Shown in pieces: positions 15,764-27,658 of a stretch of 60,388 bases of DNA (position 1 is the first letter of the stretch; every line of letters begins with the position of its first letter). The stretch spans positions 7,688 through 68,075 of the forward strand of contig JALHNB010000037.1 in NCBI GenBank assembly GCA_022843745.1. The letters run 5' to 3'. Source of the stretch: Anaerolineae bacterium. GTDB taxonomy: Bacteria > Chloroflexota > Anaerolineae > Aggregatilineales > Phototrophicaceae. The notes beneath the pieces were generated by a model, which was given only the letters and a program-made list of their open reading frames with translations, was not told where the DNA came from and ran no database searches. Both the position numbers and the translations under genes were made by a program.

Positions 15764-16522
15764 TCAAAAAGGCATTCGCTCGGTTTTTTGGCGATCTGCT
15801 GTAAGTTCACCCACATAATACGTGGTCGGGTTTCGACCTGCCCTGTGGCGTGGTTGAGCGTCTGGGCGCAGCATCTTCAGGTATCCGAGCAAAATATCAA
15901 TGTCCTGACAGTCGATTTCGCAAGCCGCCTTGTACGCAGGCATCGCTAGCCGGATCGAATGCTCACCCTGCTGGAAACGATACACAGTATTACCGGGCAG
16001 CAACCGCCAGAATCCGTTATAGCCAGTGGGCAGTTCGCTGTAATTTTTGCGCAGAAAATCCAGCAACTCGGTAGCAAAAGCAGCATCATCCCACATCACA
16101 AGTTGTTTGTTACCCTGCGCACGGTTTGCATCCCATACCCGTGCCAGGACAAAATCGGAAAATGTTTGCGCGCACATTTCCCAACGTTCATAGTCATCAT
16201 CAGCAACATATACAGGCGGGTTATCGCTTCCGTCTTTCAGCATGGCCCAAGCCGCGCAACTTTGATTTTCGTCAATCAAAAATAGCATATTTTCCGGCGC
16301 GAGCTTATCCATGCCCAGTTTTTCAATCGGCACAACAAAATCATCATTTCCACGAAGATGCTGATATGCATCCGTGATACTGTACCACTCGATAAACGCG
16401 CTGGGCAGCTTTGTCGCCAACCTTGCCTCAAGCGCCTTCAACTGTGTGACCGCGTTTGGATCAATCTCCGCTGGCATGTTGAGCAGATCGAATGTGCGCT
16501 GGTGATATTGGAGCGTAGGCAT
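15764..16522 (-). CDS. SMI1/KNR4 (SUKH) family protein
   Basis: A 252-residue cytoplasmic protein of the SUKH superfamily. The core pattern of a helix ending LATKLPSAFIEWYSITDAYQ followed by loops and strands around the bound-partner cleft is visible. SUKH proteins often neutralise contact-dependent nuclease toxins, but this copy has no toxin next to it and may be a housekeeping contact protein. The start at 16522 (ATG, MPTLQYH) is favoured over 16552 because the extra ten residues are not family-like and GGAAAG lies before 16522. It is convergent with the reductase gene, with 18 bases between stops. Confidence 0.78.
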   Translation of the reverse strand: MPTLQYHQRTFDLLNMPAEIDPNAVTQLKALEARLATKLPSAFIEWYSITDAYQHLRGNDDFVVPIEKLGMDKLAPENMLFLIDENQSCAAWAMLKDGSDNPPVYVADDDYERWEMCAQTFSDFVLARVWDANRAQGNKQLVMWDDAAFATELLDFLRKNYSELPTGYNGFWRLLPGNTVYRFQQGEHSIRLAMPAYKAACEIDCQDIDILLGYLKMLRPDAQPRHRAGRNPTTYYVGELTADRQKTERMPF

Positions 16523-16690
16523 GCTTTGTCTTTCCACAAATTTTGCTTGCACTTCGAATTATAGCCGAGCAAGTGTGTGCAGTCAGCAAAAACCGCCTCT
16601 GGTACAGTCATGCTCCAAATGCCATCGTGAAAATCGACTACAATCAGGAATGATTCAGCCGTGCGCAAGACTTGCATTCAGGAGTCCCAA

Positions 16691-17920: not shown

Positions 17921-18868
17921 ATGATGAAACCGATGAAACAGAGCCAATCCGGGATCGTTTTCGATATTCAGCGTTTTTCCATTCACGATGGGCCGGGTAT
18001 CCGAACGGCGATATTTCTCAAGGGCTGTTCGCTGCGCTGCTTCTGGTGTCACAATCCCGAATCCGTCCATCTCAAGCCTGAAGTTCAATTTTATGAATCG
18101 CGCTGCGACCAATGCGGCGAATGTCTGACTCAATGCCCCGCCTGCGCCCAGGTGGACGGCCAGATTATGTTTGATGCCGAGCGCTGTACCGTCTGCCATA
18201 AGTGCCAGGATTTTTGCTTCACCGAGGCGCTCACCGTCGCCGGACGCACAATGACCGTCGATGAGGTCATGGCCGAAGTGCGGCAGGATCACGCCTTTTA
18301 TAGCGACTCCGGCGGTGGGATCACCCTGAGCGGCGGCGAGCCTGTCCTTCAGACAGCTTTTGCCCAGGCGCTTCTGGCACGTTGCAAATCCGAAGGCATC
18401 CACACCGCGCTTGAAACCGCCGGAAATTACCCCTGGTCGCTGCTGAAAGCCCTGCTGCCCTACACCGATATGATAATGATGGACATCAAGCATCTCGATT
18501 CACGAAAACATCGCGCGGCGACGGGTGTCTTCAACGAGCGCATCCTGGAAAACGCGCGGTATCTGGCGAAAACTAATCTGCCCCTGCTCTTTCGAACGCC
18601 AGTCGTGCCAACGGTCAACGACTCGCTCGATGATCTCAACGCCATCGCCCACTTTGTCGGCGAATTGATCGAGAACCGCCAGCACACCGCGCCCATTCGC
18701 TACGAACTGCTAAAATTTCATAAACTGGCGGGCGACAAATATCGAAGCCTGGGCAGGGATTACGCCGCCGCCAACCTCGAACCGCTGTCGTCCGACGTGA
18801 TGGCTGGCTTCGAACAGGCTGTCCAGTCGGTCATTGGCGATCATTTAATCACGCATAGTATGAATTAA
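17921..18868 (+). CDS. Glycyl-radical enzyme activating enzyme (radical SAM)
   Basis: A 315-residue radical-SAM protein that would use an iron-sulfur cluster and SAM to place the radical on a glycine of the partner enzyme at 18956. The radical-SAM triad is Cys36-x3-Cys40-x2-Cys43 (GCSLRCFWC). A ferredoxin insert carries two more 4Fe-4S motifs: C62, C65, C68, C72 and C89, C92, C95, C99. This insert is typical of activases for dehydratase- and decarboxylase-type enzymes rather than of the short PflA. GGGEP-like SGGEP follows. The partner gene begins 87 bases downstream. Expression is presumably anaerobic. Confidence 0.93.
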   Translation: MMKPMKQSQSGIVFDIQRFSIHDGPGIRTAIFLKGCSLRCFWCHNPESVHLKPEVQFYESRCDQCGECLTQCPACAQVDGQIMFDAERCTVCHKCQDFCFTEALTVAGRTMTVDEVMAEVRQDHAFYSDSGGGITLSGGEPVLQTAFAQALLARCKSEGIHTALETAGNYPWSLLKALLPYTDMIMMDIKHLDSRKHRAATGVFNERILENARYLAKTNLPLLFRTPVVPTVNDSLDDLNAIAHFVGELIENRQHTAPIRYELLKFHKLAGDKYRSLGRDYAAANLEPLSSDVMAGFEQAVQSVIGDHLITHSMN

Positions 18869-18896: not shown

Positions 18897-18955
18897 ATGA
18901 CTCCCGTCTTCCGGGTAAGGTTCGATGAGGCGGGAGCAAATTTGGGAGGCCAATA

Positions 18956-21190
18956 ATGGGCACTATTTCAAAAACATCAAAATTCACATACCAGCATCGC
19001 ATTGACCTGCTGCGCGAACGTAAGCAGCGCTACACGCAGGAAAAGCAGCGCGTCATCGGCGCGATGGACTACGACGATTGGGGGATGATCCTGCCGCCGC
19101 CCGACGAGCGCGAAATCGTCGAGGTCATGGGCAATTCCGGTGTCCCCATTCGCGACGTGCGGCTGAACGGGCTGAAAATGCTCACCAATCACCCCGACGG
19201 CAGCTTCTATGGGCCGCAAATCGTCGGTGAAAATTACCGCCGTCTGCTCATGACTCATCCGGTCTTTATCGACCCTATCAGCTCGCTGGTAGGCGCGTAC
19301 ATGACCAATTTCGGCTCGTATCGCCCCAACGGTTGGCCTGCCGAATTTGATTACAGCCACCTCCACGCCGAACAGCAAAAATATCAACTCGATACGGGCA
19401 TCGGCGGCGCACAGCACTTCAGCCAGGATTTAGCGCTTGGCCTCAAACTCGGCTGGGGCGGTCTGCTGGATAAAGTGCGCGATTTCCGTGCGCTCAATGC
19501 ACCGAACGGTGGCGCGTTTTACAACGGCCTGGAATCAGTCATCCTCGGCGTTCAGGATTGGATTGAGCGTCATGTCGAGGCCGCGCTGGAAATGATCGAG
19601 TCCGAGCCTGATCCCCAACTTCGCCGAAATCTGAACGAGATTATCGAGGTGAACGAGCGCCTGATTGACGATCCACCGCGCACCTTCCGCGAGGCTTGCC
19701 AGTGGATTCTGTGGTATCAGATCGTCGCCCGCATGTACAACGGCAGCGGCTCATTAGGCCGTCTGGACGTGGTTTTGCAGCCCTTCTATGACCGCGACAT
19801 GGCAGCCAAAACCCTTAACGATGAGGAAGCCATTTTCCATATCGCCTGTCTGCTCTTGCGCGACACCGCCTACATCCAACTTGGCGGCCCGGATGCCAGC
19901 GGCAAAGATGTGACCACTCACCTCTCGTTCCTGATCCTCGAAGCCGCGCACCGCTTGAAAATCCCCGCCAATATCGGCGTATCCGTCGGCAAAAATGTCG
20001 ATCCCCGGCTGCTGGAACGTGGTGTCGAAATTCTGTTGGAGGATAAGCTCGGCATCCCCAAATTCCTGGCCGTTGACCAGACCGCTGAAGGTTTCGCGAG
20101 ACTCGGCTATCCCATCGCTGATGGTTACGAGCGTGTCTATACCGGCTGTCACTGGTTAAGCATTCCAGGCCGCGAATATACCATGGATGACATGATTAAG
20201 ATCGTCTTCCCGGTCATTTTTGACGTCGCCCTGCGCGATATGCTCTCCGACAAATCGACAGAACCCAGTGTCGCCAGACTGTGGGGGTATTATCACAAGC
20301 ACATGCGCCGCGCCATCGACGTGATCGCCGAAGGAGTCGATTTTCATATCGAGCATATGCACCAGGTCTTCCCCGAACTCGTCCTCGACCTGCTCTGTCA
20401 CGGCCCGATTGAAAAGGGCATTGATGCTTCACACGGCGGCGTTGAATACATTAATATCGGCGTGGATGGCTCCGGCCTGGCGAACGCCGCTGATAGTTTC
20501 GCCGCTGTCGAGCAGCGCATCGAGGTTGAAAAACGCATGACCTGGCAGGAATTGCTCTATTATCTTGATACCAATTGGGAAGGTCAGCAGGGTCAACGTG
20601 CGCAGTTGATGATGAAGCGCGTCCCACGATTTGGCCACGGCGGCACGCGCGCGGATGAATTCGCCCGACGCATCGCCCAGCATTTCACCACGCTTGTTCT
20701 CGAAAAACCCACCCCTGCCGGACACCGGATGATCCCCGGCCTGTTCTCGTGGGCGTTGATGCTCCGCACAGGCCGCACGTTGGGCGCGACACCGGATGGC
20801 CGCAGCGCGGGTTCGCCGACCAGTCATGGCCCCAATCCATCGCCGGGATTCCGCAAGGACGGCGCTCCAACAGCGCTGGCCGTTGCGGTTGCTGCCGTAC
20901 AGCCCGGTTTTGGCAATACCGCGCCCATGCAGATCGAATTTGAGCCGCTGCTGGCACGTGAGGCCGATGGCGTTAAGCTGGTCTGCAATCTCATCAAAAC
21001 ACATTTTGCGGCGGGTGGCACGCAGATCAACATGAATGTGCTGGATCGCGCGAAAATTCTGGAAGCCAACGCCGACCCTAGCAAATATCCCGATCTCGTC
21101 GTGCGCGTGACAGGCTTCAGCGCCTATTTCGCCAGCCTGTCGCCGGAGTTCCGCCAGCTCGTCGTTGACCGCATCCTGCAAGGCGGCTGA
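18956..21190 (+). CDS. Glycyl-radical enzyme of unassigned substrate class
   Basis: A 744-residue member of the pyruvate formate-lyase/dehydratase superfamily. The glycyl-radical loop RVTGFSAYF places the radical on Gly720, 25 residues from the C-terminus as usual. The active-site Cys is most likely Cys398 in YTGCHWLSIPG. It is followed by His-Trp, not by the second Cys of pyruvate formate-lyase or the x-Glu of dehydratases and arylacetate decarboxylases, so the reaction cannot be assigned. GGGAGG precedes the ATG at 18956. The activase is directly upstream. No shell-protein (microcompartment) genes are nearby. Oxygen-sensitive catalysis is expected. Confidence 0.9.
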   Translation: MGTISKTSKFTYQHRIDLLRERKQRYTQEKQRVIGAMDYDDWGMILPPPDEREIVEVMGNSGVPIRDVRLNGLKMLTNHPDGSFYGPQIVGENYRRLLMTHPVFIDPISSLVGAYMTNFGSYRPNGWPAEFDYSHLHAEQQKYQLDTGIGGAQHFSQDLALGLKLGWGGLLDKVRDFRALNAPNGGAFYNGLESVILGVQDWIERHVEAALEMIESEPDPQLRRNLNEIIEVNERLIDDPPRTFREACQWILWYQIVARMYNGSGSLGRLDVVLQPFYDRDMAAKTLNDEEAIFHIACLLLRDTAYIQLGGPDASGKDVTTHLSFLILEAAHRLKIPANIGVSVGKNVDPRLLERGVEILLEDKLGIPKFLAVDQTAEGFARLGYPIADGYERVYTGCHWLSIPGREYTMDDMIKIVFPVIFDVALRDMLSDKSTEPSVARLWGYYHKHMRRAIDVIAEGVDFHIEHMHQVFPELVLDLLCHGPIEKGIDASHGGVEYINIGVDGSGLANAADSFAAVEQRIEVEKRMTWQELLYYLDTNWEGQQGQRAQLMMKRVPRFGHGGTRADEFARRIAQHFTTLVLEKPTPAGHRMIPGLFSWALMLRTGRTLGATPDGRSAGSPTSHGPNPSPGFRKDGAPTALAVAVAAVQPGFGNTAPMQIEFEPLLAREADGVKLVCNLIKTHFAAGGTQINMNVLDRAKILEANADPSKYPDLVVRVTGFSAYFASLSPEFRQLVVDRILQGG

Positions 21191-21217: not shown

Positions 21218-21241
21218 GTAGGGGCGACGCATGCGTCGCCC
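21218..21241. repeat. Intergenic hairpin repeat, family B
   Basis: GTAGGGGCGACGCATGCGTCGCCCTC: GGGCGACGCATGCGTCGCCC is a near-perfect palindrome. It lies between convergent genes and may end transcription of the glycyl-radical operon. Confidence 0.7.
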
Positions 21242-21289
21242 TCTTTTCATGCGCGAATGCACCGCCATGTATCCCTGTTGTATCTCCTG

Positions 21290-25706: not shown

Positions 25707-26513
25707 ATGGATGGCAAGCAACTAAGTGCAGCGCTGCGGTCAGGAAAAATGGTGTACGGGACGGCGATTTATTCCAACTCCCCCATATGGCCGAAAGTGG
25801 TCAAAAATCTCGGCCTGGATATGGTGTTTATCGACACCGAACACACCCCTCATGACCGCAATACGCTGTCGTGGATGTGCGCGGCCTATGGTGCGCTCAA
25901 CCTCGCGCCTGTAGTACGCATCCCCTCGCCCGACGCGTTTGAGGCATCGAAAGCGCTGGACGGCGGCGCTACGGGCATCATCGCCCCCTATATCGAATCG
26001 GTTGAGCAGGTCAAGGCGCTGGGCGGCGCGGTGAAATACAGCCCGCTAAAAGGCGACAGACTCCAGGCGTTCCTCGATGGCGAAGCGCTGGAGCCGGAAC
26101 TCGAATCGTATCTGCAAAAGCGAAACGCGAATCATGTGCTGATTATCAATATTGAGAGCGTCCCTGCGATGCAGCGTTTGGATGAAATCCTCAGCCTGCC
26201 CTATGTCGATGCTGTGCTGATCGGCCCGCATGATCTGTCATGCAGCCTGGGTGTGCCGGAACAGTGGGAGCATCCGAAGCAGGAGCAAGCGATCCGCGAG
26301 ATTATCACCTGCGCCCGCGCCCACGACAAAGGCATCGGCATCCACCACAATTTCCTGCATCAGGAGATCGAATGGGTCAAGGCTGGTGCGAATCTGGTGA
26401 TGCACAGCTCCGATATTTCCGCTTTCAACCGTGCGCTGACCCAGGATTTCAAGCAGATTCGCGAGGCGCTCCAGGACGCAGGCGCGATCAAAGACGAGAA
26501 TGTACATTTCTAA
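25707..26513 (+). CDS. HpcH/HpaI-family aldolase
   Basis: A 268-residue class II pyruvate aldolase-type TIM barrel expected to cleave or form a 2-keto acid such as a 4-hydroxy-2-oxo compound, using a divalent metal. Signature stretches are MVFIDTEHTPHDR near the N-terminus, the phosphate/carboxylate loop GATGIIAPYIES, and IGPHDLSCSLG. AGGA lies nine bases before the ATG. A 2-hydroxyacid dehydrogenase gene follows on the same strand after an inserted repeat, consistent with a pathway handling glyoxylate, pyruvate or hydroxy-acid products. The exact substrate is unknown. Confidence 0.87.
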   Translation: MDGKQLSAALRSGKMVYGTAIYSNSPIWPKVVKNLGLDMVFIDTEHTPHDRNTLSWMCAAYGALNLAPVVRIPSPDAFEASKALDGGATGIIAPYIESVEQVKALGGAVKYSPLKGDRLQAFLDGEALEPELESYLQKRNANHVLIINIESVPAMQRLDEILSLPYVDAVLIGPHDLSCSLGVPEQWEHPKQEQAIREIITCARAHDKGIGIHHNFLHQEIEWVKAGANLVMHSSDISAFNRALTQDFKQIREALQDAGAIKDENVHF

Positions 26514-26637
26514 GTCGTTAGTCAGTAGTCAATAGCTTTTAGCTTCATTCTAAAATGCTGGAACTGACGTTTTATGGTTTCAAAAATACTTAAAAGTCTT
26601 TAGCTATGGACTAACGACCAAAAGCTAAGGACTATAC
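26514..26637. repeat. MITE-like element, family C
   Basis: Ends are near inverted repeats: TAGTCAATAGCTTTTAGC on the left and CCAAAAGCTAAGGACTA on the right. The internal part has a TAAAATGCTGG motif shared with other copies. It separates the aldolase and dehydrogenase genes. Confidence 0.6.
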
Positions 26638-26656
26638 AAGAAAGAGTTATTTTGCG

Positions 26657-27658
26657 ATGCAGAAAATTTGGTTTGAAGGCAGCGTGCCTTCTGATTTCGA
26701 CGTGATGGCAAACGGCGCTGCGGAGGGCATCTGCCCCGCCGACAGACTCCCCAACGAGCCGCTTTACATGCTGGACGCAGCGGATGGCGTGATCGCAGGC
26801 GGCCTGTACTATAACACCGACTTGATGAAGCAAGCGCCGCGCCTGCTGATTATCGCGCGGGCGGGGATCGGCTACGAGCGAGTCGATATTCCGGCGGCGA
26901 CAGCACACGGCATCGCGGTCTGCAACACGCCGGATGCGCCAACGGTCTCGACAGCCGAATGCGCCCTGACGCTGATGATGGGCGTGGCGCGTAATATCAA
27001 ACGGATCGAAAAAGATTTACGCTCGATGCTGGAAACAGGCGAGCCAAAGAACATTTGGGGAAGCTATACCGCGCTGGAACTCAGTGGGACGCAGCTTGGG
27101 TTGGTCGGACTGGGACGCATCGGCGGGCATGTCGCGAAGGTCGCCGGGGCGATGGGGATGCGTGTCGCCGCCTACGATCCCTATATCAACGCGGAACGGG
27201 CGGCGGCTTTGGGTGTCGAGCGCGTGGACTCGCTGGAAAAACTGCTCGGCATGTCGGATGTGGTGTCGATCCATGTGCCGCTGATGCCGGAGACCTACCA
27301 CCTGATGAACGCCGAGCGCTTCGCCCAGATGAAACGCGGCGCGATTTTTATCAACGTTTCCAGAGGCGGGATCGTCGATGAGTCGGCCTTGATCCCCGCG
27401 CTGGAAAGCGGCTATCTCTTCGGCGCTGGCCTGGACGTGACCGATCCTGAGCCGCCAGTAGCCGGAAATCCACTGTTGTACATGGATAACGTCATTCTCA
27501 CGCCGCACATCGCCAGCGCGACTCTCGTGGGTCGCCAGCGTCTCGTCGTCCATGCGATGGAGCGTGTATTGATCGCCCTGCGCGGTGAGCAGCCGCCAGA
27601 TATGCTCAACCCGGAAGTGTGGCCGCGCGTCCTCGAACGCCGCGCAGTTTTGTTGTAA
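26657..27658 (+). CDS. D-2-hydroxyacid dehydrogenase (NAD-dependent)
   Basis: A 333-residue oxidoreductase reducing a 2-keto acid (hydroxypyruvate, glyoxylate or phosphohydroxypyruvate type) with NAD(P)H. The Rossmann motif is GLGRIG (151-156). The catalytic trio is Arg236 in NVSRGG, Glu265 in DVTDPEPP and His284 in LTPHIAS. It lacks the long C-terminal ACT domain of biosynthetic SerA, so a catabolic or glyoxylate-reductase role is more likely. The preceding aldolase makes a linked pathway plausible. Confidence 0.92.
   Translation: MQKIWFEGSVPSDFDVMANGAAEGICPADRLPNEPLYMLDAADGVIAGGLYYNTDLMKQAPRLLIIARAGIGYERVDIPAATAHGIAVCNTPDAPTVSTAECALTLMMGVARNIKRIEKDLRSMLETGEPKNIWGSYTALELSGTQLGLVGLGRIGGHVAKVAGAMGMRVAAYDPYINAERAAALGVERVDSLEKLLGMSDVVSIHVPLMPETYHLMNAERFAQMKRGAIFINVSRGGIVDESALIPALESGYLFGAGLDVTDPEPPVAGNPLLYMDNVILTPHIASATLVGRQRLVVHAMERVLIALRGEQPPDMLNPEVWPRVLERRAVLL

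Follow-up and report, generated by a model that had tools for sequence, protein, structure and literature searches.

The window, a stretch of 60,388 nucleotides from an Anaerolineae bacterium (contig JALHNB010000037.1), encodes an oxygen-sensitive glycyl-radical enzyme (GRE) of 744 residues (18956..21190, + strand, ATG start), directly downstream of its activase gene on the same strand. Its active-site Cys loop, Gly397-Cys398-His399-Trp400 (20144..20155, +), carries no Glu of the C-x-E type. The Trp-for-Glu GREs, the C[HN]W subfamily, very probably form a distinct functional subfamily, apparently an uncharacterised branch of a known superfamily, and this branch may well have a chemistry not seen in its characterised relatives. 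We favour the reading, at a probability of about 0.5, that this uncharacterised subfamily acts on a carbohydrate-derived substrate and uses some residue other than the usual Glu as acid/base to break a C-O bond, a C-C bond being the less likely target.

Residues 397-405 of the window GRE read GCHWLSIPG. In alignment, Cys398 pairs with the Cys in the GCVELSIPGR of PflD (8yjo) and with that in the GCVEPQKPGK of glycerol dehydratase (1r8w). In the PDB alignments it falls on the Cys of GC-x-E in PflD, 8id0, glycerol dehydratase, diol dehydratase and 6lon, and all five have Glu at Cys+2, the position of Trp400 here. The remaining Cys residues (248, 298, 481 and 677) align away from the catalytic one. 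Thus the first-pass annotation chose the right Cys, and it rightly saw that the neighbouring Glu is missing.

The CXE motif is conserved among GRE eliminases, and its Glu deprotonates or binds the substrate hydroxyl, a Gln variant being inactive in IslA and HypD, as described in parts of two reports (PMC7077986, PMC8473560). The decarboxylases HPAD and IAD keep an equivalent Glu1 beside the thiyl Cys, according to a section of another (PMC6181972).

The replacement is general in the family. Among 298 genomes of the class Anaerolineae, 95 have a match and 27 have a relative more than 40% identical, the own genome and fragments included. A phylum-wide search of 400 genomes at E 1e-70 finds the family in two, again including its own, and a search of viral contigs found no relative. 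Two marine Bacteroidota, Flammeovirga kamogawensis and Persicobacter psychrovividus, carry enzymes that are 42-43% identical, both with GCNW and both reached through plasmid records.

The loop in 47 aligned sequences reads GCHW in 26, GCNW in 13, GCQW in 2, GCSQ in 2 and C-x-E in 4. Trp stands at Cys+2 in all 40 near-full-length family rows (26 GCHW and 14 GCNW) and in none of the 12 comparison GREs, so it is not a chance substitution. These 40 rows are the GCHW and GCNW rows from Anaerolineae and the two Bacteroidota relatives minus one frame-broken row, L067, whose frame breaks near the C-terminus. Also left out are duplicate copies of the same loci and the fragments L023, L027/L070, L028 and L026/L069 (split by TGA).

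Three extra loci, L100, L104 and L105, were met after this count. Of these and the incomplete rows left out above, every one that extends as far as the loop reads GC[HN]W (7/7), with GCHW in L023, L026 and L105 and GCNW in L027, L067, L100 and L104, while fragment L028 ends short of it. Both loop types occur together in 9 class genomes on a hand-made list, and at L053:92-5591 a GCNW enzyme and a GCHW enzyme flank one activase in a single gene run.

The distant GCQW pair is 28-30% identical to the window GRE and also has Trp at Cys+2 (2/2). These two enzymes (L071:7185-9518 and L072:6746-9232) each adjoin their own activase, and the latter has in addition a GCVE (C-x-E) GRE upstream. Other loops without the C-x-E Glu occur too. 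An Anaerolineae pair (L073:1274-3580 and L074:8275-10530) has GCSQ and a segment of 12 residues before strand 3, and a GRE on a Peptoclostridium acidaminophilum plasmid (L082:2404-4773), with an activase adjoining, has GCVV in place of GC-x-E.

Several other residues are fixed along with Trp400. Glu407 (20174..20176, +) is present in all 40 family rows. None of the 12 comparison GREs has it, and three of them are gapped in this column. Glu474 (20375..20377, +) is equally invariant and is matched by one of the 12, PflB. Gln659 (40/40) and His624 (38/40) are absent from all 12, and Asn692 (40/40) is matched again only by PflB, the other 11 having Gln. All five residues are also found in both enzymes of the GCQW pair. 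Thr689 was considered as another PflB-like residue and was ruled out, as PflB has Gln in that column.

The segment before strand 3 (residues 300-307, 19853..19876, +) is shorter by about 20 residues than in most GREs. Before the Gly-Gly of the strand, all 40 family rows have 7 residues and both GCQW enzymes have 8. Of the 12 comparison GREs, ten have 27-28 residues there and two have 12. The matching region of HypD holds Ser334 on a short helix and then Asp339 and Phe340, which part of one report (PMC7077986) ties to substrate binding or catalysis. Hence, judged from the co-fixed residues and the shortening at this place, the active-site pocket seems to be rebuilt on more than one side.

The family also stands apart as a whole. 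A tree of 54 rows, five named references among them, was built by a quick maximum-likelihood method; in it the 40 family rows make one clade (branch 1.85, SH-aLRT 100) apart from HypD, CutC, YbiW and PflD, and the clade keeps its support of 100 in a tree without PflB and the GCQW pair. The GCQW pair joins it at SH-aLRT 99, a join that is flagged as possible long-branch attraction. All 12 NCBIfam matches of the window GRE are below cut-off, the best being TIGR01774 with 243.1 bits against 678.2. In this limited form, with the tree and the models at hand, the clustering with a characterised group that would have refuted the first-pass annotation is not seen.

Superfamily membership is plain from PF02901 (1.9e-80) and PF01228 (8.9e-14), the Gly radical loop, the central catalytic Cys and the radical S-adenosylmethionine (SAM) activase. 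The best PDB match is PflD (8yjo; 2.2e-51 with the single sequence and 1.7e-89 with the profile), and the match lists are headed by PflD, 8id0, CutC and the glycerol and diol dehydratases, with pyruvate formate-lyase (PFL) near the bottom. Yet the class signatures are missing one after another. The CXE motif of the diol and glycerol dehydratases, CutC, HypD and IslA is C-H-W here, the Cys-Cys of PFL is Gly397-Cys398, and the Glu1 of the arylacetate decarboxylases is absent (NF033718, 120.2 bits against a cut-off of 1100).

The fumarate-binding Arg of the X-succinate synthases lies at Cys+15 in BSS (493/508) and MASS (477/492), as given in a portion of PMC12358834. At that position the window GRE has Met413 and no family row has Arg (0/40). 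In the aminoacyl radical enzymes (JACS 2024), the radical Gly is replaced by another residue, by our reading of PMC11528403, whereas Gly720 is kept in 40/40 family rows. Class III ribonucleotide reductase does not apply either, as PF13597 has no match in the genome.

Among the named systems, PflD, of the PFL2 type from E. coli, shares the superfamily and the LSIPGR after the Cys but differs in its GCVE, its 27-residue segment before strand 3 and its lack of Trp400, Glu407, Glu474 and Gln659. The B12-independent glycerol dehydratase (1r8w/1r9d) has His164 and Asp447 (Cys+14) aligned with His154 (19415..19417, +) and Asp412 (20189..20191, +) of the window GRE, both invariant in the 40 family rows. 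Its Glu435 is replaced by Trp400, and its residues before strand 3, Tyr339 among them, fall in the missing segment; we take these and Glu435 to line its active site.

HypD, the trans-4-hydroxy-L-proline dehydratase, is similar in its adjoining activase, and it and PflD also have His in the His154 column, which in HypD is taken to be the essential His160. It differs in its C-V-E (C. difficile, in the part of PMC7077986 that covers it) or C-I-E (Parabacteroides) and in retaining the Ser334/Asp339/Phe340 region, and its model NF043068 gives the window GRE 192.6 bits against a cut-off of 1100. PflB resembles the family in lacking Glu at Cys+2 and in the Asn and Glu at positions 692 and 474 but has its own Cys-Cys pair, and TIGR01255 scores 83.8 bits against 994.2.

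The radical machinery appears complete. The activase, of 315 residues (17921..18868, +; PF04055, PF13353 and PF00037), has the radical-SAM motif CX3CX2C at residues 36-43 (18026..18049, +) and two ferredoxin-type CX2CX2CX3C motifs at residues 62-72 (18104..18136, +) and 89-99 (18185..18217, +). It scores 342.7 bits with TIGR02494 against a cut-off of 174.35 and is the sole match over that cut-off genome-wide. The radical site, Gly720 (21113..21115, +), lies in RVTGFSAYF and is Gly in every family row. Both the standard radical loop and the two extra 4Fe-4S sites of the activase are as first described.

By these motifs and the superfamily mechanism, the activase would place a radical on Gly720, which would hand it to Cys398, and the Cys398 thiyl radical would abstract a hydrogen atom from the substrate above the Cys loop. 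The substrate may be a polyhydroxylated, carbohydrate-derived molecule, since the counterparts of His164 and Asp447 are kept and the genes around the Bacteroidota enzymes point that way. In a differently shaped pocket, cleavage would then fall on a C-O bond, with a C-C bond as the less probable target. The acid/base would not be the usual Glu; the conserved Glu407 and Glu474 are candidates for this role. That the substrate derives from carbohydrate is an even bet, and elimination with a relocated base a tentative proposal at shorter than even odds.

The carbohydrate link comes from the gene context. In Flammeovirga kamogawensis the activase and GRE genes are near genes for GH92, SusC, SusD, a sodium:solute symporter, a sulfatase, GH130 and GH47. 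In Persicobacter psychrovividus they are near genes for GH47, a GH130 protein (PF04041), a cellulase-family hydrolase and a symporter, with SusC/SusD-type genes on the opposite strand. A small protein of 136-139 residues, alike in the two species and cupin-like by eye, directly follows the GRE in both.

Some Anaerolineae loci are suggestive as well. One run (L064) reads GntR regulator, DHDPS-family aldolase, activase, GRE, FAD oxidoreductase and YhcH/DUF386. Elsewhere the GRE neighbours include sulfatases (L042 and L048), DUF2961 (L040 and L050) and an alpha-L-fucosidase with GFO/IDH/MocA (L049), and at L053 a weakly GH42-like gene precedes the GCNW enzyme, the activase and the GCHW enzyme. 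The GRE of L037 adjoins heat-shock genes and some other loci have nothing telling nearby. In an all-against-all comparison of the neighbours, the only widely shared genes were those of the GRE itself and of the activase, whose cluster covers 11 loci.

Several results weigh against the favoured reading. Co-directional Anaerolineae neighbours of at least 150 residues number 56, of which 46 were scanned, and 20 random distant genes served as control. Carbohydrate-type neighbours are 12/46 against 3/20 in the control (Fisher p = 0.52), so the enrichment in Anaerolineae is not significant over this small control. Looser labels give 16/46 against 3/20 (p = 0.14), or against 4/20 when the epimerase of the control is counted (p = 0.26). 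These labels were assigned after the annotations were seen and the thresholds differed between scans; the GH42-like gene is among the 12 at E 9.7e-5 while the control threshold was 1e-6.

In the window itself, the neighbours of the GRE pair are TPR, SUKH, APH and GNAT genes by Pfam and no glycan cluster. The small Bacteroidota protein has no Pfam match over cut-off, and no relative of it was detected in the open reading frames of the Anaerolineae loci then compared. With no significant enrichment and no glycan genes next to the window GRE, what carries the carbohydrate link is therefore the pair of Bacteroidota clusters, together with a few suggestive loci in Anaerolineae. On the chemical side, it is conservation that nominates Glu407 and Glu474 as candidate acid/bases, and the Glu474 and Asn692 common to PflB hint towards C-C chemistry. 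An AlphaFold2 model, made from the window GRE and L032-L035, is too poor for the active site (mean pLDDT 54.8, and below 50 at residues 396-413 and 595-744).

This hint belongs to an unlikely alternative, a C-C lyase like PFL or another C-C-cleaving GRE, acting on a 2-keto or sugar-acid substrate without need of a deprotonating Glu. PflB too has no Glu at Cys+2 (CCVS), the family's GGTQINMNV around Asn692 resembles its GGQHLNVNV, and GANP is common to PflB and much of the family. We give this alternative more weight because the single match to Glu474 outside the family and the GCQW pair is PflB. However, the second Cys of PFL is missing, being Gly397, the overall similarity is to the eliminases, and the activase is of the two-cluster type. 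The earlier statement that the enzyme is no simple PFL thus agrees with the alignment, in which PflB reads CCVS.

Quite unlikely, in our estimate, is an ordinary GRE dehydratase that has moved its base and takes propanediol, glycerol or a similar small diol or polyol as substrate. His154 and Asp412, the counterparts of active-site residues in glycerol dehydratase, are kept throughout, and the invariant Glu407 or Glu474 could serve as base, but the shortened segment implies another pocket, and none of the 19 window proteins scanned with Pfam is a microcompartment component. The same residues bear on the first-pass claim that a different reaction is likely as the Glu is absent. The absence stands; the consequence is less firm, as the base could have moved, with Glu407, Glu474 and His154 all invariant in the 40 rows. 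A relative of the X-succinate synthases or arylacetate decarboxylases, both also divergent GREs, is very improbable. Portions of PMC6181972 and PMC6453916 report a two-cluster activase for IAD and discuss one for HPAD, yet the family lacks the Arg at Cys+15, the decarboxylases retain the Glu beside the Cys (PMC6181972, in the part cited above), and both groups score below the leading eliminases in the PDB search.

We give hardly any credence to a GRE that is degenerate or regulatory and does not turn over a substrate. An activase is in the same gene run at 9 of 37 family loci, as compared with that of the window and with several loci ending at contig edges. Against this, Cys398, Gly720, His154 and Asp412 are invariant, and the activase is next door in the window, in both Bacteroidota and at both GCQW loci. 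The uncharacterised subfamily with a carbohydrate-derived substrate remains our preferred reading. In the open-licence PMC literature, outside which lie the subscription papers and supplements, we found no GRE with Trp at Cys+2 and none in a polysaccharide-utilisation locus. Similarity networks of the GRE superfamily may already hold the family as an unnamed cluster.

Around the two-gene unit, a ribosome-binding-like GGGAGG (18944..18949, +) precedes the GRE start codon, and a terminator-like hairpin of 9 pairs (21221..21242, +) lies 3′ of the unit, which is weak evidence by itself, since the region holds 5 such sites where 3.9 are expected. The gene at 15764-16552, two genes upstream of the activase, encodes a SUKH/SMI1-KNR4 family protein; members of this family are frequently immunity proteins. 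At 25707-27658, 4.5 kb downstream of the GRE, an HpcH/HpaI-type aldolase gene is followed by one for a D-2-hydroxyacid dehydrogenase, and this pair shows no sign of belonging to the GRE.

The genome is of 8.0 Mb with an estimated completeness of 98.6%, and the window GRE is its only PF02901 match. It encodes a haem-copper oxidase subunit and has no match to class III ribonucleotide reductase, so a strictly anaerobic lifestyle is improbable. The earlier remark that no microcompartment genes accompany the GRE is correct for the 19 window proteins, though bacterial microcompartment shell genes are on two other contigs, C4 (L117) and C9 (L118). The open reading frames adjoining these were read by eye as RpiB, DeoC, aldehyde dehydrogenase and class II aldolase, and neither contig bears the single PF02901 match.

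Among the genomes listed, a match is absent from the 13 others of the window's family and present, at 29%, in one of the 7 placed elsewhere in its order, and the GC content at the GRE locus is about 0.57, near the top of the window range of 0.48-0.60. These figures are no more than suggestive of horizontal acquisition of the locus.

The GRE eliminases with solved structures have in common a Glu next to the radical Cys, and this Glu binds or deprotonates the substrate. A clade without that Glu but with the radical machinery and other fixed residues makes the dependence of the mechanism on it testable. A rather doubtful extension is that the family consists of carbohydrate-active GREs whose direct substrates are sugars or sugar acids set free from glycans, with the rebuilt Trp-for-Glu site supporting either elimination by a new mechanism or a class of reaction that GREs are not known to catalyse. 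If the glycan context holds true, radical enzymes would join the means of anaerobic sugar breakdown in marine and sediment bacteria.
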